Shown here: positions 489 to 14,780 of the stretch, in pieces
Layout: every line of letters starts with the position of its first letter
How positions within the stretch are numbered: position 1 is the stretch's first letter
IMG/VR virus record: IMGVR_UViG_3300046369_001028
Coordinates: 1 to 43,179 of that record
Direction: 5' to 3' (one strand)
DNA length: 43,179 bases
Source of the DNA: a virus
Notes under the pieces: model-generated
Databases searched by the model: none
Told to the model about the DNA's origin: nothing
Seen by the model: only the letters and a program-made list of their open reading frames with translations
Translations under genes and position numbers: made by a program

Positions 489-2186
489 ATGTGTGGAATC
501 TTAGGAGGTAATCTCTTTAAGAACAACGATGACATGAAGAATGGACTTACTTCTATGATGCATCGTGGTACTGATGGGAATACTATAATATCATTTAAGA
601 ATAATATGAAGTTATCTCATAACCGATTATCTATTCAAGATTTATCAAAAGCAGCAGGCCAACCAATACCATCAGAAGATGAAAGATATTGGATTGCTTT
701 CAATGGTGAATTATGGAAATCAACATTTAAAAAGTTTGATAAAAAACTTAGGTCAAAATATAATTTTACAACAGAAAAATCTGATACTGAGTTATTACTT
801 TATATTCTAATTGATAATATAGATAATCTTGAGTCAATAATGAATGAAATAGAGGGAATGTTTTCATTTGCTTTATATGATAAAAAAGAAGATAAAACAA
901 TTCTTGGTAGAGATTTTATGGGTAGATTGCCTTTTTATTATTACTATGATAATATTGGTTTTGTATTTTCAAGTGAAGTAAAGGGATTAACTGAATCAAT
1001 GGATGATTTAAAATATTTTCACATTGATAAAGGTTCTCGTTTTAATTCAAAATATAAAGCAGAGGAAAAGATAAAAATAGTTGAACCAGGTACTTTGATA
1101 ACCTTTGAATCAGATAAAACATTAGAAGGATATAAAAAATCAGAAACAGTTTGGTTTGATTTTAAACCATCACCATTTGATAAAAAACACTTAACAGGAT
1201 ATTATCCAAGAACCGAAGAAGAGTTTAGTTTATATGAAAATGAAGATAAAGGAATTGATTACTATTCATCTGAATTTAAAAGATTATTAGAAGAAGCTGT
1301 TGATGATGAAATGATTGCAGATGTTCCTATTTGTACAATTCTTAGTGGAGGTATTGATAGTACTATTATCAGTTATATACTTTCTAAGAAACTAAAAAAA
1401 CAAGGAAAACGATTAACTGCATATGTTGTTAATGTAAATAAGAGTAGAAAAACAAAAGTAAAAGATGATTTATACTACGCTACATTAGCTGCTAAATTAT
1501 TTGATATTGATTTAAAAGTTATTAATTATGATGAAATTGATGTAAAAAGAAAATTAATACATTCAATATGGGCATCTGAAACTCATAAATGGACTCAAAT
1601 ATCTCCTGCAGTTATACAACTTGCATTAGCATGGCAAATAAGAAAAGATGGATTTAAAGTTGTATTTGGTGGAGAGGGAGCTGATGAAATATTTGCTTCA
1701 TATGGTGATGTAAAAAGATTCTGTTGGCATAAACCAATTTGGTATCATCAAAAGAGAGTTAATTTGATTAATAACTTACATAAAAGTAATCTTATTAGAA
1801 CAAATAAAGCAATGATGTATGGTGGTGAGGTAGAATTAAGAACTCCATTTATTAATAAAAAGGTTATTGATTTTGGATTAAGAATACCTACAAAATACAG
1901 AGATGATAAGGAAGGAACAGGTCAAAGAATGAAATATGTTCTAAGAAAGGCCTTTGAAAAAGAAATAGGTTCATTAGATACAGAACTCTTATGGAGACCA
2001 AAGAAAACATTCCAAGTTGGTGCACATAGTGATTTCTTAAAAAAACCTATTTGGAAAACGAAAATAGAAGATATATTTGAACAATTATTTATAGAAAAAA
2101 ATGACAATATCGAAATACGAGAGTTGCTTGCTCAAGGACAAAGCGGACATAACCGAGGTAGTATTGCAGAGATTACCATCGATTAA
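489..2186 (+). CDS. asnB: Asparagine synthetase-type glutamine amidotransferase
   Basis: A 565-residue class II glutamine-dependent amidotransferase fused to an ATP-dependent synthase domain. Cys2 of the MCGILGG start is the N-terminal nucleophile once Met is removed, which fixes the start. RGTDG (26-30), FNGELW (71-76) and SDTE (98-101) form the glutaminase site. The C-terminal half has the PP-loop SGGIDST (286-292) and GGEGADE (394-400). The family releases ammonia from glutamine and transfers it to an AMP-activated carboxylate, classically aspartate. Length is normal for AsnB. The following dehydrogenase and PLP-enzyme genes suggest a dedicated small pathway, so the acceptor may not be aspartate. 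Its last 86 nt overlap the next gene in another frame. Confidence 0.9.
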   Translation: MCGILGGNLFKNNDDMKNGLTSMMHRGTDGNTIISFKNNMKLSHNRLSIQDLSKAAGQPIPSEDERYWIAFNGELWKSTFKKFDKKLRSKYNFTTEKSDTELLLYILIDNIDNLESIMNEIEGMFSFALYDKKEDKTILGRDFMGRLPFYYYYDNIGFVFSSEVKGLTESMDDLKYFHIDKGSRFNSKYKAEEKIKIVEPGTLITFESDKTLEGYKKSETVWFDFKPSPFDKKHLTGYYPRTEEEFSLYENEDKGIDYYSSEFKRLLEEAVDDEMIADVPICTILSGGIDSTIISYILSKKLKKQGKRLTAYVVNVNKSRKTKVKDDLYYATLAAKLFDIDLKVINYDEIDVKRKLIHSIWASETHKWTQISPAVIQLALAWQIRKDGFKVVFGGEGADEIFASYGDVKRFCWHKPIWYHQKRVNLINNLHKSNLIRTNKAMMYGGEVELRTPFINKKVIDFGLRIPTKYRDDKEGTGQRMKYVLRKAFEKEIGSLDTELLWRPKKTFQVGAHSDFLKKPIWKTKIEDIFEQLFIEKNDNIEIRELLAQGQSGHNRGSIAEITID

Positions 2187-2958
2187 CATTTTAGGTGCAT
2201 TTGAAAAACCAACTTTAGATAAAGATAAAGTAAAGGTACTTTCAGTTAAATTTAGTAAGGTTGGTAAAAAAACCTTTACTGATTATAAAAACTTAGAATG
2301 GGTAATATGTCGTTCTCATGGTATTGATAATGTTAATATTGAAGAAGCTAGAAAAAGAAACATAGGTATTGTTGCAACTGCACCAACTGCTAAACCATGT
2401 GCTAATTGGATTCATAGTAAAATTAAAGAAGATGATTCTGTATTAATTTTTGGTAATGGTGCAATATCAAAAGAATTACAAAAGAAAATAGGTAATTTTA
2501 ATCTTGTAAATTCTAAAACATCTCAAGAAGAAATTGATAGATATTTAAAATTCTGTAAAACTATCGTAATTACAATACCTTTTAATAAAAGAACTAAAAA
2601 CTACTTTGATAGAACTTTCTTTTCTAAGATAAAAAATAAAGTAGATATTATTTCTATATCTCGTGGAGAAGTTTTTGATAATGGAGCAATATTGGATTTC
2701 TCAGTAAATAAAAAACTAAGAAATGGACATTTCGATATGTTAACTACTGATGGTAGAAAAAGATTATTAGAAAGAAAAGAAATCAGATACTATGAGCACA
2801 CTTCATGGGAATATAATCAACCAAAGGATTCTCATGGTAAATTAGGTGGTTATGTAAACATTGAGTTTGCAGAGAACTTAAAATTAGTAGTAGATAGTTG
2901 TTTAGAAGATAGAGTACAAGATGCTCATTTAAATAGAATAAAGAATTTATGGTTCTAA
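2101..2958 (+). CDS. D-2-hydroxyacid dehydrogenase-like protein
   Basis: A 285-residue protein of the NAD-dependent D-isomer 2-hydroxyacid dehydrogenase family (SerA/lactate dehydrogenase type). Visible features are the N-terminal WVICRSHGIDNVN segment, the Rossmann loop VLIFGNGAISKEL, the ITIPFNKRTKNYF strand, the SISRGEVFD block that carries the family's substrate-binding Arg, and a late EHTSWEY whose His fits the catalytic base. It is shorter than the usual 310-330 residues. The start at 2101 lies inside asnB (86-nt overlap); there is no in-frame ATG after the asnB stop, and the only other candidates, TTG at 2128 and 2164, also overlap. The stop overlaps the next start by 10 nt. Substrate unknown. 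Confidence 0.78.
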   Translation: MTISKYESCLLKDKADITEVVLQRLPSINILGAFEKPTLDKDKVKVLSVKFSKVGKKTFTDYKNLEWVICRSHGIDNVNIEEARKRNIGIVATAPTAKPCANWIHSKIKEDDSVLIFGNGAISKELQKKIGNFNLVNSKTSQEEIDRYLKFCKTIVITIPFNKRTKNYFDRTFFSKIKNKVDIISISRGEVFDNGAILDFSVNKKLRNGHFDMLTTDGRKRLLERKEIRYYEHTSWEYNQPKDSHGKLGGYVNIEFAENLKLVVDSCLEDRVQDAHLNRIKNLWF

Positions 2959-3800
2959 CACCAATAGAAGAATATAAATTAAAAGGAAAGACAGTTCATG
3001 TCAAACGAGATGATTTAGTTGGAAATGGTACAACTCTTCCTCGTTGGGCAAAGATTGAAGGTATTCGTAAAATATTAGAATCAGATTACATTGATAAATC
3101 AAAACCACTTACACATCTTTCAGTTTATGGAAGTTGGACAGGTTGGGTTTTATCTGTATTATGTAAAGAGTATGGAATTGAATTTATATCTTCATATCCT
3201 AATTCTAAAACTTATCCACCAGAGCTATTGGAAATAATCAAAAGTAATGGTGCTAAGTTAAATCCTTTGAAACCAAATATGATGTCTATTATGGAAAATA
3301 AGTTGCGTAGTATTTCATCAAAGGAAGGGTATCAACAACTTCCGTACGCATTTAATCATCCTGTATATGTTTCATATATGCAAGATAGAATGAAACAAGT
3401 TTTGGAAGAACAAGATTTCGACCATCTTGTAGTATCAATGGGAAGTGGTGTTACCGCTTCTGGTTTGATTAGAGAATTTTTAGAATATAAAGATTGGAAA
3501 GATATCTTAAACAATAAAAGAAAAGTACATACAGTTACAATGTCATCAATTAAATCCACAAAAAAGATTTTAAACGAAAACAAAGCTGGTGATTTAAATA
3601 ACATTAACATTTACAAATCAGAATATGCATTTGATGATTTTATGGATGATGTTTTTGATTGGGATTCAGTTTGGGATTTAAATGAATTTTGGGAGAGAAA
3701 GATGTTTTGGTGGCTGTACAATAATATAGAACAACTTGATGGTAAAATATTGTTTTGGAACATAGGTGGTTCTTATAGAAAATCGTTAAACTTAAAATAA
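2949..3800 (+). CDS. PLP-dependent ACC deaminase/D-cysteine desulfhydrase-like enzyme
   Basis: A 283-residue fold-type II PLP enzyme (tryptophan synthase beta superfamily). KRDDLVGNG (19-27) matches the KREDL opening of ACC deaminases and D-cysteine desulfhydrases, and Lys35 in PRWAKIEGI aligns with their PLP-binding lysine. MGSGVTASGL corresponds to the glycine-rich phosphate-binding loop, and FWNIGGSYRKS closes the fold. Such enzymes carry out beta-elimination, beta-replacement or ring-opening deamination of amino acids. Its start overlaps the dehydrogenase stop, so amidotransferase, dehydrogenase and PLP enzyme form one translational unit. The usual GGNK signature is altered around the lysine, so a non-canonical substrate is likely. 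Confidence 0.75.
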   Translation: MVLTPIEEYKLKGKTVHVKRDDLVGNGTTLPRWAKIEGIRKILESDYIDKSKPLTHLSVYGSWTGWVLSVLCKEYGIEFISSYPNSKTYPPELLEIIKSNGAKLNPLKPNMMSIMENKLRSISSKEGYQQLPYAFNHPVYVSYMQDRMKQVLEEQDFDHLVVSMGSGVTASGLIREFLEYKDWKDILNNKRKVHTVTMSSIKSTKKILNENKAGDLNNINIYKSEYAFDDFMDDVFDWDSVWDLNEFWERKMFWWLYNNIEQLDGKILFWNIGGSYRKSLNLK

Positions 3801-3803
3801 ATA

Positions 3804-3844
3804 AAAAAAGACTTGGATATATGAAAATAATTTCGTATATTGTA
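3804..3844 (+). promoter_or_regulatory. Bacteroidota-type promoter P1 (variant -7 box)
   Basis: TTG at 3813-3815 is followed by 20 nt and then TATATTG at 3836-3842, which lacks one T of the TATATTTG seen in the other copies. Positions 3804-3841 are identical over 38 nt to 21203-21240. It precedes the 822-residue gene. Confidence 0.75.
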
Positions 3845-3864
3845 GGACAATTAAAAATTAAACT

Positions 3865-6333
3865 ATGCTAAAGCAGATTATAGAAAAATGGAAAAATAAT
3901 CGATTGAAAAAAGAAATCGAACATTATTTTACCAAACACGAAGAACAAGTTGCAATTGAAAGTATTGCAAAAGGACTAGGTATTGAAGTATCAGAAGTAT
4001 CAGATTTTTTGTTAACTCTTCAATATCAAAAGCTTGTTTATACTGATATTAATGAACTGAAAACAAGGTTTAAAATCTTTTTAAAAACTAAAAAAGGTAA
4101 ATCTTTATCAGTAACTACTAAACTTTTAATTAACAATTATCAAATCGGTACTTGGGCAAATCTTGTAGTTGAAAAAACTAAAAAACAACTATCTAAACTC
4201 AAAACCTTTATACAATCTCCACAACAAAGGCGTAAATTGTCTGCAATATTTTCAAAGGAAAATTTAAAAAAGGTATTCTCTACTACTTGGAAGAAAAAAG
4301 ATGTAACAGGATTAGTTATCACTCAATTACTTGATGTTAGTATAAGAACTGTTGAGGTAAATTTAAATAAGTTTGAAGAAAAAGGATTAGCAAAAGTATT
4401 TGATGGGGATACCAAATCTCTTTTAATTCTTGATTTTCACGCAGGAAAAGAAATAGCCAGGGTATTTACAGATGATAAGGGTAAAAAATATCATCCTGAT
4501 ATTGAACGATTAGTTATTGACACACCACCTGGTGAAACAAATAAAAAACAACACTCGGCACTTAAGTATGTTATTCTTCAGATGGAAAAAAATAATAAAA
4601 CAAGTGAGGTTTTAGAACTATATCTTACGCCTGAGATTATAAAAAAATATAAACCAGAATTATATGAAAGTTTTCTTAATACAGAGGTTACTTTAAAATT
4701 ACACGATTCAACAGATATATGGGAAAGTATTATATATAATTTAATGTCTATTACATATGCTGGTCACTCGATATCTCAACAAATAATGTCCTTTGTTAGT
4801 TCAAGTTATGAAACACGAGTTTTCACAGGTACTTATTCATTTACAAACATATTTAAAAATTCATTTTTTGCTGATTCTGATACAAAACCAGATTATTTTA
4901 AAAAATTCAGAAACAAAATTCATAAAGGAGAAGATTATGACCAATCTGAGGAATCTTTAATCAATACCATTTGTCAGATTTTCTTTAAAGAAGATGATTT
5001 TAGAATTGATAATTTAATATCATCAAACATACCAGATGTACTTGCAACTCCTTTTCAAACTGAATCATTAGAACTTTCAAAGGATTTTCAAAAAAGATGG
5101 GAACAATCTAATGTAACTGAAAGAATAACTTGGATTAAGAACTGGCAGAAGTTACTTATTTTGATAAAAGAATTTTTATCATTTGATGGTCATATTAAGA
5201 TTTCTGAAAAGTTTGTAAAAGATATGGAAGATGCTATATCACGCAGAGTTAATTTAGAAAGAGATAATGGCAAAATACTAAATGTATCAGATGATGATAC
5301 TAAAAAACTCACTTATAATAATAGTACTTTAAAGAAGTTCAAATTTAAACATTCTGATTATCAACAACTTTTACATATTTGGTTATTTACTCTTGGATTT
5401 ATATTCAACAATTCAAATAAAGAATTAGATAAAAGAAATATTAAAGAGGTCTATAAGAAAATATTGAGTATTTATCAAAATGAATGGTTAAACTTTTTAT
5501 CTAGTAACGAATCACTACATTCAATTTCAGATAAAGTTAAATCATATAATCAAAGAAAAGATAAAGATAATAATCTTGTTAACCAAAAACCTATATCCGC
5601 ACTTAATGTATTAATGAATGTAGATTGGGATTTAAATGTATTAACAAAATTACATTGTGATTTTTATACTAAATACATTAAATTATCACTTGATAGTAGG
5701 TTTATAAAAAACGAAAAGTTAGCTAAAATAAGAGATGAATATGAAGAAGGTTATTATGATTATTTTAAAAAGAAGGTAAAAACTTCATTTAGAATAACTT
5801 CAGATGGTGTGATGTTTTCATGGTCAGAAACCGATGGTGGACATGGAGATAGAGATGATAGAGATACCGTAAGGGAAAATATTTTTTGGGAATATAAAAT
5901 TTATAATAGAGATGAAAATTTAGAAAAATTATATAACAAAAACCCAAAACTGGCTACCTTATTATCATATTGTACTGTTCAAAAAATTCTTAAATATTCA
6001 TTGAAACATACCAAAGAAATACGAGATATTGTAGGTATGGGTGATGAGTTAACTGATGAACAAAATAGGTTATATCAACATCATTTGCAACTTGTTAATA
6101 TCAAAAAGAATATAGAATTTGATTATGAATGGTTATATGGTGAAGTTCTTTCTTCCCACCTAGAAAAATGTAATGAACACAAGTGTTCAGATTACCTATT
6201 AGATGCACCTCAAGATTACATAAATCAAAAAGAAAAGAAATACAATCAACTAATAGAATCATTAGAAGATGGAACTTATTTTACAAAAATAAAAGAAACA
6301 GGTTGTTCTGCAACCTGTAACTCTAACGTATAA
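3865..6333 (+). CDS. Large unknown protein with two winged-helix-like segments
   Basis: An 822-residue protein whose family I do not recognise. Residues 15-60 look like a winged helix-turn-helix (a helix pair around AIESIAKGLGIEVSEVSDFLL, then a short wing). A second similar unit occurs near residues 145-195, with VTGLVITQLLDVSIRTVEVN followed by an acidic wing. The long remainder is mostly helical and charged. Near the end Cys769, His772 and Cys774 plus Cys814 and Cys818 could bind a metal. There are no membrane segments or signal peptide. It has its own promoter and ends 5 nt before an SPPY methyltransferase, so the two probably form a unit. DNA binding is an inference from the helix-turn-helix units. 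Confidence 0.7.
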   Translation: MLKQIIEKWKNNRLKKEIEHYFTKHEEQVAIESIAKGLGIEVSEVSDFLLTLQYQKLVYTDINELKTRFKIFLKTKKGKSLSVTTKLLINNYQIGTWANLVVEKTKKQLSKLKTFIQSPQQRRKLSAIFSKENLKKVFSTTWKKKDVTGLVITQLLDVSIRTVEVNLNKFEEKGLAKVFDGDTKSLLILDFHAGKEIARVFTDDKGKKYHPDIERLVIDTPPGETNKKQHSALKYVILQMEKNNKTSEVLELYLTPEIIKKYKPELYESFLNTEVTLKLHDSTDIWESIIYNLMSITYAGHSISQQIMSFVSSSYETRVFTGTYSFTNIFKNSFFADSDTKPDYFKKFRNKIHKGEDYDQSEESLINTICQIFFKEDDFRIDNLISSNIPDVLATPFQTESLELSKDFQKRWEQSNVTERITWIKNWQKLLILIKEFLSFDGHIKISEKFVKDMEDAISRRVNLERDNGKILNVSDDDTKKLTYNNSTLKKFKFKHSDYQQLLHIWLFTLGFIFNNSNKELDKRNIKEVYKKILSIYQNEWLNFLSSNESLHSISDKVKSYNQRKDKDNNLVNQKPISALNVLMNVDWDLNVLTKLHCDFYTKYIKLSLDSRFIKNEKLAKIRDEYEEGYYDYFKKKVKTSFRITSDGVMFSWSETDGGHGDRDDRDTVRENIFWEYKIYNRDENLEKLYNKNPKLATLLSYCTVQKILKYSLKHTKEIRDIVGMGDELTDEQNRLYQHHLQLVNIKKNIEFDYEWLYGEVLSSHLEKCNEHKCSDYLLDAPQDYINQKEKKYNQLIESLEDGTYFTKIKETGCSATCNSNV

Positions 6334-6338
6334 AATAA

Positions 6339-7592
6339 ATGAATAGTATAGAATCAATACTAAATAAATACAAAAAGGGTACTTACGAAGGCGAATATCC
6401 TACTGTTTCTGAATCAGATTTTAATTTACTTAAAACTTTTGATAAGTTAAAAGTAAAGGAAGCTTTGGCAGACTTGTTTATGGAGTATCCTCTACCTTTG
6501 GCCACAAAAAAGTATTCATGGGAAGATGTTAGGGATGAGTACCTTAAACTTAAGGGAGTTCGTTGGAATACATTGTTACTTGAAGATGAGTGGTATCAAA
6601 GGCAATCAAGAGAATCTAAGTATCCTTTAACATATGAAGGTAAACAACTTTATTTTAGAAGATATAATTTAGGTAACTTATCAAGTAATAAATTTTTTGA
6701 AGAGGAACGATTTGGAGTTGAATCTTCAGGTTATCCATCTGGTACAAGAACATGGAATACAAGAGCCTTTATGGTTACTTTGATGGGTGCCGCTTATACT
6801 TTAAAACTACCAAAAATCGGAAGAAGGGAATTGAGAACAATGGTAGGATTGAGAAAATATATCGCGTCTCAGCATAAACCTTGTATCACAAAAGCACTTA
6901 CTGAATATTTTGGTAGTGAGAAAATGCTTGATTTTTCTGCAGGATGGGGAGATAGGTTATGTGGAGCTATGGCAAGTGAAACAATAAATCATTATGTTGG
7001 CATAGACCCAAGAACTCAGAATCACCCAATATATAAAAACCAAGTAGAGTTTTATCAAAAACATACTTCATTCTTTGAGAATCCAACAAAGGTAGATTTA
7101 CATGAATCACCGGCAGAAGATTTTGATTATTCAGATTACCAAGATTATTTTGATTTGGTTTTTACTTCACCACCTTATTTTAATGTAGAGAGATATAGTA
7201 ATGATGATACTCAAAGTTGGATTAGATATGAATCAATTCAATCATGGAATAAAGATTTTTTACACAAAACTTTAGAAAAAGTTATACCAACTGTAAAAAA
7301 AGGTGGTAAGATTGCAATCAATATCGCAGATGTTTACACTTCAGAAAAAGGTGGTGGTGGAAAAAATTGGAAAGAAATAACACAACCAATGTGTAAGTTT
7401 ATAGAATCAAAGGGATTAACTTACAAAGGTTGTATTGGTATGGAACTTGCAAAAAGACCTAATAGTGGTGGAGCAGGAACTGTAAAACAAACTGAACATA
7501 ATCAAAATCAGTATAAACAAGAAACTTTAAAGAACTCAGAAGAAAATCAAGATAAAAGATTTTGTGAGCCGATTTGGATATTTGAAAAATAA
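6339..7592 (+). CDS. SPPY-motif SAM-dependent DNA methyltransferase-like protein (paralogue A)
   Basis: A 417-residue protein with a Rossmann methyltransferase core. DFSAGWGDRL (198-207) is the SAM-binding motif I in an unusual SGWG form, GIDPR (221-225) is the following acidic strand, and TSPPYF (276-281) is the catalytic motif IV, usual for amino-methyltransferases acting on cytosine N4 or adenine N6. The first 190 residues are a separate N-terminal region with no clear match. It is clearly related to the protein at 13143-14780: both share the motif order, the spacing after SPPYF and an INIADV/WNIADI strand. No partner restriction enzyme is visible. Its last codons overlap promoter P2. DNA as substrate is inferred. 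Confidence 0.72.
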   Translation: MNSIESILNKYKKGTYEGEYPTVSESDFNLLKTFDKLKVKEALADLFMEYPLPLATKKYSWEDVRDEYLKLKGVRWNTLLLEDEWYQRQSRESKYPLTYEGKQLYFRRYNLGNLSSNKFFEEERFGVESSGYPSGTRTWNTRAFMVTLMGAAYTLKLPKIGRRELRTMVGLRKYIASQHKPCITKALTEYFGSEKMLDFSAGWGDRLCGAMASETINHYVGIDPRTQNHPIYKNQVEFYQKHTSFFENPTKVDLHESPAEDFDYSDYQDYFDLVFTSPPYFNVERYSNDDTQSWIRYESIQSWNKDFLHKTLEKVIPTVKKGGKIAINIADVYTSEKGGGGKNWKEITQPMCKFIESKGLTYKGCIGMELAKRPNSGGAGTVKQTEHNQNQYKQETLKNSEENQDKRFCEPIWIFEK

Positions 7593-7608
7593 TTCGTATA
7601 TTTGTATA
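7574..7608 (+). promoter_or_regulatory. Bacteroidota-type promoter P2 for DNA polymerase
   Basis: TTG at 7574-7576, 20 nt spacer, TATATTTG at 7597-7604, with TTCG just before the -7 box. The -33 element lies inside the last codons of the methyltransferase gene. The DNA polymerase start follows 24 nt after the -7 box. Confidence 0.82.
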
Positions 7609-7628: not shown

Positions 7629-10145
7629 TTGTATCAAAACATTTATTACCAACGAGAAAGAAATTTAATCCATCTTTGGGATGACCAAAGAGGATATTCT
7701 GCATTTCCATATACAAGATATGCCTATGAACCTGCACAACGAGGTGAATATAAATCTATTTATGGAGATACTCTAACTAAAATTTATAAGTTTAAGAAAG
7801 ATGATGTTAACTTATTTGAATCAGATGTACCTGAAACTACACGAGCATTGGTAGATATGTATTCTGAATCAGATGATATATCAAAAGGTCATGTTATCCT
7901 TACATACGATATTGAGTGTGAAATGATAAGTGGATTACCAGACCCATTAGAAGCTAAGAATGAATTAACTTCAATTGCACTTCACGATTCGGCTACAAAC
8001 CAATATTGGGTATTGGTTGTTGATAAAGAAGGTGGTATGAAAGAAAAAACTACCGATAAGTGTATTGTTCTTCCATTTCAAGATGAAAGAGATATGTTAA
8101 TGAAGTATTTGGAGTTATATGAAATGATTAATCCAAGTATTGTTACAGGTTGGAATATTGATTTCTTTGATACACCAATGTTATACAATAGAATCAAAAG
8201 ATTATTAGGTGAAAGACAAGCAAATAGATTATCACCAATCGGACAATGTTTCTGGTCTCCTTATAGAAAAAGATATTTTATGGCAGGTGTATCTTATTTA
8301 GATTACATTGCTTTGTATAAAAATTACAACTATGGTGAATTAGCTAATTATCGATTAGATACTGTTGCTCAAAAAGAATTGGGTAGAGGTAAGATTGAAT
8401 ATCAAGGAAACTTAGACCAATTATTCAGAGATGATATTGAAAAGTTTATTGAGTATAACTTAGTGGATGTTGAGTTGGTTGTTGAGTTTGATAAAAAACT
8501 TCAGTTCATTGATTTATGTAGAGGTATCTGTCATGCTGGTCATGTACCATATGAAGATTTTGTTTATTCATCAAAGTATCTTGAGGGTGCTATGTTGACT
8601 TATCTAAGAAGAAGAAACTTAGTTGCACCAAACAAACCAGCGGATAGACAAGAGAGAATGCAGGCTATTAGAGATAATAACCAAGAGAAGTTTATCGGAG
8701 CTTATGTAAAGGCACCAATCGTTGGTAAGTATGAATGGATATATGATTTAGATTTAACTTCACTATATCCTTCAATCATTATGACTGTAAACATTTCACC
8801 TGAAACCAAGATTGGTAAGATTCAAGATTGGGATGTTCAGAAATATTTAAACAAAGAAATAGATACTTATTATATCGGTGAAGATTCTATCTCAAAGGAA
8901 AACTTAAAAGAATATTTGGATAAATCAAAATTTGCAATAGCATCTAATGGTGTACTTTACAGAACAGACCAAGTTGGTTGTATACCTGGTATTCTTGACT
9001 TGTGGTTTCAGAAACGAGTTGAGTATAAAAACGAAATGAAAAAATATGGAAAAGCAGGAGATAAAGAAAAATATGCCTTCTTTCACAAACGTCAGTTGGT
9101 TCAGAAGATTTTACTTAACTCTTTATATGGTGTGCTTGGGCTTCCTGCCTTTAGGTTCTATGATGTTGATAATGCTACCGCTGTTACCACGACAGGACAG
9201 ACAGTTATTAAATCAACTGCGGATATGGCTAACATCAAGTACAACAAGGAGCTTAATACTCCTGATTTGGATTCTAACATATACATCGATACTGATTCTG
9301 TATTCTTCTCAGCAGTTCCTTTAATGGATAAAAGATTTCCTAATTGGAAAAATGAAGAACAAGATACAATTGCTGGTTATGTAAATGATATTGCAGAAGA
9401 GATGCAAGATTACCTTAATGATTTCTATGATATTATGTCAAAGAAGATTTTCAATGTAGATGTTGATAAACACAGATTGGAGATTAAGAAAGAGTATGTT
9501 GCAAAAGCAGGATTGTGGGTAGCAAAGAAAAGATATGCACAATGGATTATATCAGATAATGGTGTACCAGTAGATAAGTTAGATGTAAAAGGATTAGATG
9601 TTAAACGAAGTTCATTCCCTAAAGCATTCCAAGAATGTATGGGTACAGTTTTGATTGATATTCTAAAAGGTAAAACAGAAGAAGAAATTTCAGATTATGT
9701 TTTAGATTTCAAAAAGAATATGATAAACAGACCTACATCTGAGATTGCAAAGAACTCAGCGGTAAAGAATCTTAAGAAATATATGCCGAAAGGTAAGAGA
9801 GAACCATTTACAATAATGAAAGGAACACCTGCTCATGTTAAAGCATCTATTTTATATAATGATTGTTTGAAACATTTCAACGCTCCTTTCAAATATGAAC
9901 CAATGAAAAATGGTGATAAAGTAAAGTGGGTTTACCTTAAAGATAATCCATTAGGAATAGATGGATTAGCATTCACAGGTTATTCAGACCCACCAGAAAT
10001 AGAAGAATTTTTAGCTACTTACATTGACCACAATAAAATCTTTGAAAGAGAATTAGGACATAAACTTCAAGTTTTCTTTGATGCAGTTGGTTGGGGTGAA
10101 GTAATTAGTGAACAAAGAACTGCAGAAAAGTTCTTTAGTTTTTAA
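7629..10145 (+). CDS. Family B DNA polymerase, T4 gp43-like
   Basis: An 838-residue replicative polymerase with proofreading exonuclease. The exonuclease motifs are YDIECE (93-98, Exo I), GWNIDFFD (174-181, Exo II) and YNLVD (276-280, Exo III). The polymerase motifs are DLDLTSLYPS (373-382, motif A), KILLNSLYG (493-501, motif B) and YIDTDS (552-557, motif C), with all catalytic Asp residues present. The start is TTG: an in-frame TAG at 7623 leaves only one codon upstream, and the next Met (residue 77) would remove the beta-strand region before the exonuclease. It acts with the gp45-like clamp and gp44/gp62-like loader encoded downstream. It has its own promoter and ends just before a hairpin. 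Confidence 0.95.
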   Translation: MYQNIYYQRERNLIHLWDDQRGYSAFPYTRYAYEPAQRGEYKSIYGDTLTKIYKFKKDDVNLFESDVPETTRALVDMYSESDDISKGHVILTYDIECEMISGLPDPLEAKNELTSIALHDSATNQYWVLVVDKEGGMKEKTTDKCIVLPFQDERDMLMKYLELYEMINPSIVTGWNIDFFDTPMLYNRIKRLLGERQANRLSPIGQCFWSPYRKRYFMAGVSYLDYIALYKNYNYGELANYRLDTVAQKELGRGKIEYQGNLDQLFRDDIEKFIEYNLVDVELVVEFDKKLQFIDLCRGICHAGHVPYEDFVYSSKYLEGAMLTYLRRRNLVAPNKPADRQERMQAIRDNNQEKFIGAYVKAPIVGKYEWIYDLDLTSLYPSIIMTVNISPETKIGKIQDWDVQKYLNKEIDTYYIGEDSISKENLKEYLDKSKFAIASNGVLYRTDQVGCIPGILDLWFQKRVEYKNEMKKYGKAGDKEKYAFFHKRQLVQKILLNSLYGVLGLPAFRFYDVDNATAVTTTGQTVIKSTADMANIKYNKELNTPDLDSNIYIDTDSVFFSAVPLMDKRFPNWKNEEQDTIAGYVNDIAEEMQDYLNDFYDIMSKKIFNVDVDKHRLEIKKEYVAKAGLWVAKKRYAQWIISDNGVPVDKLDVKGLDVKRSSFPKAFQECMGTVLIDILKGKTEEEISDYVLDFKKNMINRPTSEIAKNSAVKNLKKYMPKGKREPFTIMKGTPAHVKASILYNDCLKHFNAPFKYEPMKNGDKVKWVYLKDNPLGIDGLAFTGYSDPPEIEEFLATYIDHNKIFERELGHKLQVFFDAVGWGEVISEQRTAEKFFSF

Positions 10146-10350: not shown

Positions 10351-10716
10351 ATGAGTGAAAAAATTTATGTAAGAAAGTGTGAAAGATACACACTATGGGA
10401 AGCAACAAAACCAATTGAGGTTGATGTTGAAAAATTAAGAAAGTGTGAACCACCATATGAGGGTAACACACCAGAAGAACTTTTAAATTATCTTGGAGAT
10501 AATGTTTGGTGTAACGAAGAATTCTATGACAATGAAACTAATAAAGAAGTTTATGGTGAAGATGAAGTATATGATTTATCTATGGAAGATGCATATGAAA
10601 TGGAAGTATATTCAGATTCAAGAAATAAAGGATGTGAAGATTGGATAGATGTTGGAGTACCAAATGAAGAATACACCAAATATGGTGGATTTGAAGTAAA
10701 AGCAACAAATGTATAA
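10351..10716 (+). CDS. Unknown acidic protein (121 aa)
   Basis: A 121-residue, strongly acidic protein with no family I recognise. It has four Cys residues, in RKCERY, RKCEPP, VWCNEE and KGCEDW, and an Asp/Glu-rich middle (YGEDEVYDLSMEDAYEMEVY). It lies between the basic 39-residue ORF and groEL, 15 nt before the groEL start, so it is probably co-expressed with both. The position after polymerase recalls RegA in T4 and the length is similar, but the sequence shows no RegA likeness. An acidic small protein in an early phage operon could be a DNA mimic or a host-takeover factor; that is speculation. Confidence 0.6.
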   Translation: MSEKIYVRKCERYTLWEATKPIEVDVEKLRKCEPPYEGNTPEELLNYLGDNVWCNEEFYDNETNKEVYGEDEVYDLSMEDAYEMEVYSDSRNKGCEDWIDVGVPNEEYTKYGGFEVKATNV

Positions 10717-10719
10717 TAA

Positions 10720-12348
<1,629 letters not shown>

Positions 12349-12365
12349 AATAAATACGAAAAGAC

Positions 12366-12400
12366 TTGGTAGTTTCAAATAAATTTCGTATATTTGTACA
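12366..12400 (+). promoter_or_regulatory. Bacteroidota-type promoter P3 for sliding clamp
   Basis: TTG at 12366-12368, 20 nt spacer, TATATTTG at 12389-12396, again with TTTCG before the -7 box. It lies between the groEL stop and the clamp start, with 33 nt from -7 box to ATG. Confidence 0.82.
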
Positions 12401-12429: not shown

Positions 12430-13143
12430 ATGGAAAAACAATCATTAAATAGGTTTGTATCAAAATACAACCTTGCAGGTTTAGTAGAATCTGTAAAATG
12501 GGAATCAAAAGATGGTTCTCTAACTACTTCTTTCATCTCTGATGATAAATCAGTTTTAGGAAGTGTAAGTATGAAAGAATTTGAAGGTTCAGATTCAGAA
12601 TTTGGTGTATATGATACAACTAAATTAACAAAGATGTTATCAGTTCTTGGTAGCGATGTAGATTTCTCAATCAATGATATTGATGGGAAACCAGTTTCTT
12701 TGAAATTCAAAGATGGTTCAACAAATGTAAATTATATGTTAGCTGATTTATCAGTTATCCCTAATGTACCAGATTTGAAACAATTACCACCATTCAATGT
12801 GGAAATTAAATTAGATGCAAACTTTATCTCAAAGTTTATCAAAGCAAAAGGTGCTTTGGCTGATGAAAATAACTTTACGTTTACTTGTAAAGATAATAAA
12901 GGAACTATTGTATTAGGTTATTCTAATATTAACACAAATAGAATTAACATTGATGTTGATTGTACTTGTGAGGGTGATGTTGACCCAATTTCTTTCTCAG
13001 CTACATACTTAAAAGAGATACTAGTTGCAAACAAAGAAGCAACAGATGCTACCTTAAAGATTTCATCTCAAGGATTGGCACATATTTCTTTTTCAATCGA
13101 TAACTACGAATCAAATTATTATCTTGTAGAAATTCAATCTTAA
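12430..13143 (+). CDS. Sliding clamp, T4 gp45-like
   Basis: A 237-residue protein close in length to T4 gp45 (228). The pattern fits a trimeric two-domain clamp: an N-terminal domain with FGVYDTTKLTKMLSVL, similar to the DVAIYDLNGFLGILSLV region of gp45, a linker with PNVPDLKQLPPF near residue 115, and a C-terminal domain ending SIDNYESNYYLVEIQS. It would encircle DNA and hold the family B polymerase on the template, loaded by the proteins at 21492 and 23549. It has its own promoter, and its stop overlaps the next start (TAATG), so methyltransferase paralogue B is translationally coupled to it. Confidence 0.85.
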   Translation: MEKQSLNRFVSKYNLAGLVESVKWESKDGSLTTSFISDDKSVLGSVSMKEFEGSDSEFGVYDTTKLTKMLSVLGSDVDFSINDIDGKPVSLKFKDGSTNVNYMLADLSVIPNVPDLKQLPPFNVEIKLDANFISKFIKAKGALADENNFTFTCKDNKGTIVLGYSNINTNRINIDVDCTCEGDVDPISFSATYLKEILVANKEATDATLKISSQGLAHISFSIDNYESNYYLVEIQS

Positions 13144-14780
13144 TGAGTAACAAACACTTTTACGAAAGAAGTAAGTTTTCCGAGTTTAAATCCAATACTA
13201 CTTATCATCAGTTGTTAGAAATGACTGATGATGAGTTTGTGGTATGGGCTCGTTTACTCCGTAAAGAAGTTACTGAACAATGGGATGAACGAGGTACTCC
13301 ACCAGTAATTGGTAGAGATGAAGATGGTATTATTGAAAAATTCAAGAAACTTAAATCTAACCCAGCAGATTATTGGGAAAAGGATTTAAGTGGTGATGAT
13401 GAATCATTGGGTATCATTAAAAACTTTAATAAAGATGCATCAGTTGTAAATCAGTTTTTTCCTACAATGTTAAAAACTAAGATTTCAATTGGTAAATCTG
13501 CTGATAATGGTTTATCTATTTATGACCACTTCTCAGACCCTAATATGGAAGATAAGTTTGTTCATATTATGAAACGAGCAGTTAAAAGAGATTCTATGTA
13601 TTCTTGGTCTCGTTCAATTGTAGATAAAAAAGATGAGAATCCTTTTTGGAATGGACAAGGTGCGATTGATTTTATCAAAGATGTACATAATGAAAAGATA
13701 TTTAATGGTAAGTATTCTGATTTAGGTATTTGGATTGCTAAAGTAAATACAAGAACCATTGAAAACTATGGTACTTTTAATCAACAATATATAGGTTCTA
13801 AGAATCTATATCTAAAAGCTGAACAAGTTCAGAAATTAAAAGATGATGGTTTCTTATCAGATACTCAGTTATCCAATATAGATAGAATTGAATCTTCATG
13901 GACATCTGAAGCAGGTACAACTCAAACTTATGTATATCAAATACGTTGGTATGAAAAGGATTCGGGTATCTTCCCTAAGATATTACAAGTATTCAGATTA
14001 AGTTGTGGACAACCAGCTGTAAACTTTCCAGCATTAACTGCTAAATGGATTTACGAAAACTATACCAAACACATTGATACAGATGAACCATTACATATTT
14101 ATGATTCATCAAGTGGTTGGGGTGGTAGAATCTTAGGAGCAATGAGTTCTCGTAAGAAAATTCACTATGTTGGTACAGACCCTAATCCTGATAACTTCTT
14201 AGATGAAGAAGGTATTTCTCGTTATGAATATGTTGCTAAGTTCTTCAATGATAAATGTGTAGATAATTATTCAGATAAACTTACATCATTCTTTGATGTA
14301 ACACCACAAGGTAACACATATGAATTATTTCAAGATGGTTCGGAGTTAATTAAAAACAATCCTGAGTTCCAAAAGTATAAAGGTAAATTAGATATTTCAT
14401 TTACTTCACCTCCTTACTTTAATAGAGAACAATATTCACAAGATGAGAACCAATCGTTCAAAGCTTATGGTGAGTATGAAGATTGGAGAGATAACTTCTT
14501 AAAACCTACTTTAACAACAATTTATGAATATCTTAAAAACGATAGGTATATCCTATGGAATATTGCAGATATTAAGATTGGTGAAAGTACCTACTATCCA
14601 TTGGAACAAGATTCAATTGATATCTTAAATGAATTAGGATGTGAATATAAAGGAAAACTTAAAATGTTAATGACACGAATGGTTGGATTAGACCCTTCTA
14701 AGAGTGGAATTAAGAATGCAGTTCAGTACGATGGAAAGGCATATAAATTTGAACCAATATTCGTTTTTTACAAACCTTAA
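13143..14780 (+). CDS. SPPY-motif SAM-dependent DNA methyltransferase-like protein (paralogue B)
   Basis: A 545-residue relative of the protein at 6339-7592, with an N-terminal extension of about 130 residues. DSSSGWGGRIL (321-331) is motif I, GTDPNPDN (344-351) the next acidic strand, and TSPPYFNREQ (421-430) the catalytic motif IV. The shared block after SPPYF (Tyr-Ser, then a D-x-x-Q-S turn) and the WNIADI strand make the relationship plain. Its coupling to the sliding clamp gene suggests it works at or soon after replication, for example modifying new phage DNA. No restriction partner is seen. The two copies differ greatly outside the core, so they may modify different targets. Confidence 0.72.
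   Translation: MSNKHFYERSKFSEFKSNTTYHQLLEMTDDEFVVWARLLRKEVTEQWDERGTPPVIGRDEDGIIEKFKKLKSNPADYWEKDLSGDDESLGIIKNFNKDASVVNQFFPTMLKTKISIGKSADNGLSIYDHFSDPNMEDKFVHIMKRAVKRDSMYSWSRSIVDKKDENPFWNGQGAIDFIKDVHNEKIFNGKYSDLGIWIAKVNTRTIENYGTFNQQYIGSKNLYLKAEQVQKLKDDGFLSDTQLSNIDRIESSWTSEAGTTQTYVYQIRWYEKDSGIFPKILQVFRLSCGQPAVNFPALTAKWIYENYTKHIDTDEPLHIYDSSSGWGGRILGAMSSRKKIHYVGTDPNPDNFLDEEGISRYEYVAKFFNDKCVDNYSDKLTSFFDVTPQGNTYELFQDGSELIKNNPEFQKYKGKLDISFTSPPYFNREQYSQDENQSFKAYGEYEDWRDNFLKPTLTTIYEYLKNDRYILWNIADIKIGESTYYPLEQDSIDILNELGCEYKGKLKMLMTRMVGLDPSKSGIKNAVQYDGKAYKFEPIFVFYKP

Follow-up and report, generated by a model that had tools for sequence, protein, structure and literature searches.

Two adjacent plus-strand genes of a T4-type phage of Bacteroidota-type bacteria, one coding for an 822-aa ORFan (P822; positions 3865–6333) and the other for a 417-aa SPPY amino-methyltransferase (MT; positions 6339–7592), appear to be neighbours within a cargo hotspot and not the two parts of one new system, since related viruses lack P822. 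Both genes lie on a 43,179-base virus fragment from IMG/VR, hereafter the window. We consider it somewhat probable that MT, an orphan phage DNA methyltransferase, and P822, a recently gained piece of hotspot cargo, are independent accessory genes, which would share one transcript. MT would methylate amino groups (N4-cytosine or N6-adenine) in the phage DNA, so that host restriction enzymes would be blocked. P822 would be lineage-specific cargo, acquired along with a phage promoter of its own at the junction between a PALP-type gene and MT; as a putative DNA-binding protein, mostly helical and with two winged-helix units near its N terminus, it might act in host takeover or counter-defence. This last step is the weakest of the explanation, and the proposed role is tentative.

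An earlier note on this DNA had reported the two genes, their coordinates and the gap between them, all of which were reproduced in an ORF check; the stop of P822 and the start of MT are separated by exactly 5 nt. That the P822 frame arose by chance or belongs to a decayed gene, as the absence of its relatives wherever we searched might suggest, is scarcely credible: the chance of an 822-codon frame staying open at the local base composition is about 5e-36, the codon-position composition is of coding type and, like the codon use, resembles that of other phage genes, and a promoter is found immediately 5' of the frame.

This Bacteroidota/phage promoter (positions 3814–3843, + strand) consists of a -33 TTGG near 3814 and a -7 region, TTCGTATATTGT, with TTCGTATATT at 3832, 33 nt 5' of the ATG. 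In the window, TTCGTATATT occurs six times on the plus strand and never on the minus strand (0.05 copies expected per strand); a TTGG-like element is located about 20 nt 5' of each of the six, and most of them lie 21–45 nt from a gene start. In relatives, the same motif precedes polB and clamp genes. The motif fits the -33/-7 promoter consensus of Bacteroidota (TTTG/TAnnTTTG; PMC6847099). The single promoter described in the earlier note was recovered, with one copy 5' of P822 and none between P822 and MT, and polB possesses a separate promoter (positions 7575–7604, + strand) that is conserved in L002, L003, L004, L027, L029, L030, L038 and L042. Since one promoter precedes P822, none separates the two genes and polB has its own, P822 and MT are likely to be co-transcribed. 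The strong phage-wide motif TTGG-N-TTCGTATATTTG was also retrieved at window positions 12385, 21231, 24737 and 35366, as well as in relatives, always on one strand only, and could be used for mapping transcription units.

In MT, the SAM-binding motif I, D198-F-S-A-G-W-G-D-R206 (positions 6930–6956, + strand), and the catalytic motif IV, T-S-P-P-Y-F (residues 276–281, with SPPY at 277–280; positions 7164–7181, + strand), are present, and residues D198, S200, G202-R206 and S277-F281 are invariant in 30 relatives. The N6_N4_Mtase family (PF01555) is matched by 28 of the 30 members of the MT family, while the score of the window MT by itself, 24.9, stays below the cutoff of 26.7. The AF2 model of MT is well folded (pLDDT 88) and matches SAM-methyltransferases in the PDB (E down to 7e-7) and annotated N4-cytosine DNA methyltransferases in BFVD (E to 1e-17), which identifies a Rossmann methyltransferase fold. 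MT relatives were detected on 25 contigs in a first IMG/VR scan and, after a polB scan, on 58 contigs in all, duplicate contigs excluded. On many of these contigs MT is located directly upstream of T4-type polB, ending 17–36 nt before it. No restriction enzyme is fixed beside MT; its neighbours vary and are often PALP, HD or polB only. From its motifs and modelled fold, MT is most likely a conserved orphan phage amino-methyltransferase acting on N4-cytosine or N6-adenine. Orphan methyltransferases of phages protect against host restriction (PMC4190342), and by analogy MT plausibly protects the phage DNA by self-methylation.

Could P822 then be a target-recognition or regulatory subunit of MT? 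The likely co-transcription and the HTH units of P822 would suit such a role; however, the N-terminal region is conserved across the MT family, whose members occur on their own in dozens of phage contigs. MT thus seems to need no such subunit, and we hold this reading to be very improbable.

Several relatives possess tandem MT copies overlapping by 19–22 nt (L013:5279-7716, L014:9608-12045, L020, L031:7500-9934 and L085-L088). Those of L013, L014 and L020 are each about 47–50% identical to the window MT, a sequence pattern that suggests duplication followed by divergence. The window itself carries a second methyltransferase-like gene near polB (13143-14780); its 545-aa product matches the SPPY-type DNA methyltransferase families phrog_498 and phrog_12517 in the C-terminal part.

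P822 was said in the earlier note to belong to no known family, and indeed none was found in searches of Pfam, PHROGs, NCBIfam and PADLOC, nor was there a match among PDB sequences. Nothing credible was retrieved by five pattern scans of IMG/VR, run with full-length P822 as well as with portions of it, by one pattern scan of GTDB genomes, or by tblastn against phages, plasmids, 71 related virus records and 428 Bacteroidota genomes; pattern scans reach close relatives only, so that distant relatives of P822 may escape them. One match with an E-value of 0.006 was treated as chance.

Within the 200 N-terminal residues of P822, seven HTH-type Pfam families match at two spots (residues about 11–61 and 144–192), and a control with nine shuffles yielded no match. 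The first winged-helix-like unit (residues 21–61; positions 3925–4047, + strand) is matched by HTH_IclR, HTH_69 and Sigma70_r3, HTH_IclR reaching E 0.003 on an 82-aa fragment, and the second (residues 144–192; positions 4294–4440, + strand) by HTH_Crp_2, HTH_20, HTH_11 and HTH_23. The two winged-helix units proposed earlier thereby find support at these two spots, from matches that all fall below the curated cutoffs. The Cys-rich end noted earlier is real, four of the seven cysteines being found within the last ~60 residues; the coding sequence of the final Cys pair, GCSATC, lies in a perfect 8-bp hairpin (inverted repeat I20; positions 6298–6318, + strand). Beyond the HTH region P822 is predicted to be mostly helical, a prediction taken from an AF2 model of P822 alone with a pLDDT of 34, which carries no weight and was left out of fold searching. 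PHROG and Pfam matches outside the HTH spots are at chance level. A HEPN reading of the FRNKIHKG stretch was dropped, as its spacing is R-x3-H; the usual HEPN spacing is R-x4-6-H. On the HTH-type matches, P822 probably binds DNA. Support for this activity and for the role of P822 is indirect, given that there is no relative for a conservation test and that the model has a pLDDT of 34.

The genomic setting of the two genes is a gene-swapping hotspot. On the right it is bordered by the T4 gp43-type family B DNA polymerase gene, polB (positions 7629–10145, + strand; phrog_262, E 3e-186), and on the left, in relatives, by a gene that looks ribonucleotide-reductase-like from its sequence (nrdA). 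Between these borders the relatives carry anything from no cargo (L085-L094) to many genes, the list including HD, AsnB-like, PALP, MT, GroEL, Mom, glycosyltransferase-like, AAA and GmrSD_N(DUF262)-HNH genes. DNA-modification genes are thus part of the cargo; the Mom family (PF25680, E 2e-45), which is common in the hotspot, forms a cluster of 24 ORFs (L069:6097-6900 and 23 related ORFs). AsnB and PALP turn up repeatedly next to MT in the cargo, and their products could synthesise a modified base or some other metabolite; in the window, AsnB-like amidotransferase, 2-hydroxyacid-dehydrogenase-like and PALP genes occupy 489-3800. The phage GroEL gene is mobile around polB: it follows polB in the window (10351-12348), where it adjoins a gene for a 121-aa protein, and is also present at L060:5053-6672 and L102:1394-3016. 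The identity of phage GroEL to the Bacteroidota GroELs retrieved does not exceed about 63%.

The co-occurrence check suggested in the earlier note found the P822–MT pair on none of the 58 MT contigs, and P822 was likewise missing from the 71 whole virus records searched, though a fragmentary contig is weaker evidence of absence than a complete genome. The left neighbour of P822 is a PALP-type (PLP-enzyme-like) gene (positions 2949–3800, + strand; phrog_7093, E 3e-15; PF00291, E 2e-6, below cutoff), whose stop bounds the P822 insertion on the left. By blastn and junction comparison, the segment comprising the promoter and P822 (positions 3801–6338, + strand) is absent at the PALP-MT junction of L004, L038, L042, L045 and L070; in these and in L043, PALP leads directly into MT. 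In L004, whose MT and PALP are 77% and 84% identical to those of the window, the PALP stop overlaps the MT start, and the other five are alike. In L003 an HD gene abuts MT, again without P822, and the PALP-MT junction of L060 and L102 contains a GroEL gene. The simplest account of these alignments is that P822 and its promoter were gained in the window lineage. With the pair absent elsewhere and close relatives possessing P822-free junctions, the undescribed two-gene system that the earlier note had envisaged is not upheld.

The same comparison bears on the possibility that P822 serves in replication or origin binding alongside the adjacent DNA polymerase, to which we assign only a small probability. 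The HTH units, the neighbourhood of polB and clamp-loader genes, and a weak match of unit 2 to a DnaD-like helicase loader (phrog_186, E 0.02–0.03) speak for it. However, P822 is missing in relatives with a 90–96% identical polymerase, the phrog_186 match is at chance level, and polB has its separate promoter. The origin-binding role suggested earlier is left with proximity to polB, which is common to many unrelated cargo genes.

A further alternative holds that the slot before MT receives exchangeable effectors that attack unmodified DNA of the host or of rival phages, MT marking the DNA of the phage itself. The slot holds P822 in the window, a GmrSD_N(DUF262)-HNH nuclease-like gene in L030 and a ParB-like-looking 500-aa protein in L027 and L029, all in the same place with gaps of 3–12 nt; the L030 gene ends 3 nt before MT and has its own promoter, almost the same as the P822 promoter. 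Since this nuclease-like gene occupies the MT slot with a promoter copy of its own, a functional link between MT and the slot genes is possible. GmrSD_N and/or HNH nuclease-like genes were found at L030:6365-7966, L060:8530-9999 and L076:6843-8537 and, by clustering, in L054, L062, L066, L075, L077, L078 and L102. These domains lie near MT in L030 and L060 (by clustering, also in L062, L066 and L102) and near glycosyltransferase-like or Mom genes in L076 (by clustering, also in L054, L075, L077 and L078). To judge from their domains and neighbours, such genes beside modification genes before polB are possibly phage-borne restriction-like modules.

P822, however, resembles no nuclease family by HMM searches or profile comparison: no nuclease family was found in it in Pfam, PADLOC, PHROGs or NCBIfam, neither a DUF262 nor an HNH domain was matched, and hhalign detected no remote similarity to the other slot proteins, slot nucleases included. 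Moreover, MT often has an empty slot before it, or one filled by GroEL. We thus regard the exchangeable-effector reading as unlikely, and quite unlikely its specific form in which P822 is an effector outside the known nuclease families, recognising unmodified DNA and tolerated through the marking by MT. A functional partnership between a P822 effector and MT, which has no direct support, is possible. Under the preferred reading of two independent accessory genes, the earlier picture of a DNA-binding protein next to a protective methyltransferase is retained in its parts, namely a likely DNA-binding ORFan, plausible protection and one transcription unit, but not as a system.

What takes the place of the proposed new system is a cargo hotspot of T4-type Bacteroidota phages, defined by nrdA and polB, in which DNA-modification genes (MT, Mom) adjoin exchangeable genes, among them several that resemble GmrSD_N-HNH nucleases. 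Should the slot genes act against unmodified DNA, such phages would possess restriction-like modules of their own.

Among known systems, MT belongs to an already described kind, the orphan methyltransferases of phages, and P822 is an ORFan. Like M.Phi145I and M.Phi93DAM of lactococcal 936-type phages (PMC4190342), MT is a stand-alone enzyme that bears motifs for SAM binding and catalysis and lacks a constant restriction partner; unlike them, it is of another sequence family, is located beside polB in T4-type Bacteroidota phages, and has a methylation activity that is predicted. GmrSD and BrxU are GmrSD/DUF262-HNH nucleases, and genes of the same kind occupy the MT slot of relatives such as L030, whereas P822 has none of these domains. 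The nrdA-polB interval as a whole resembles phage accessory-gene hotspots such as those of P2 and P4, which hold antiviral systems (PMC9122126), in its fixed core borders and its turnover of cargo, part of which is related to restriction or DNA modification, but it differs from them in belonging to T4-type Bacteroidota phages and in that its cargo can carry a phage promoter.
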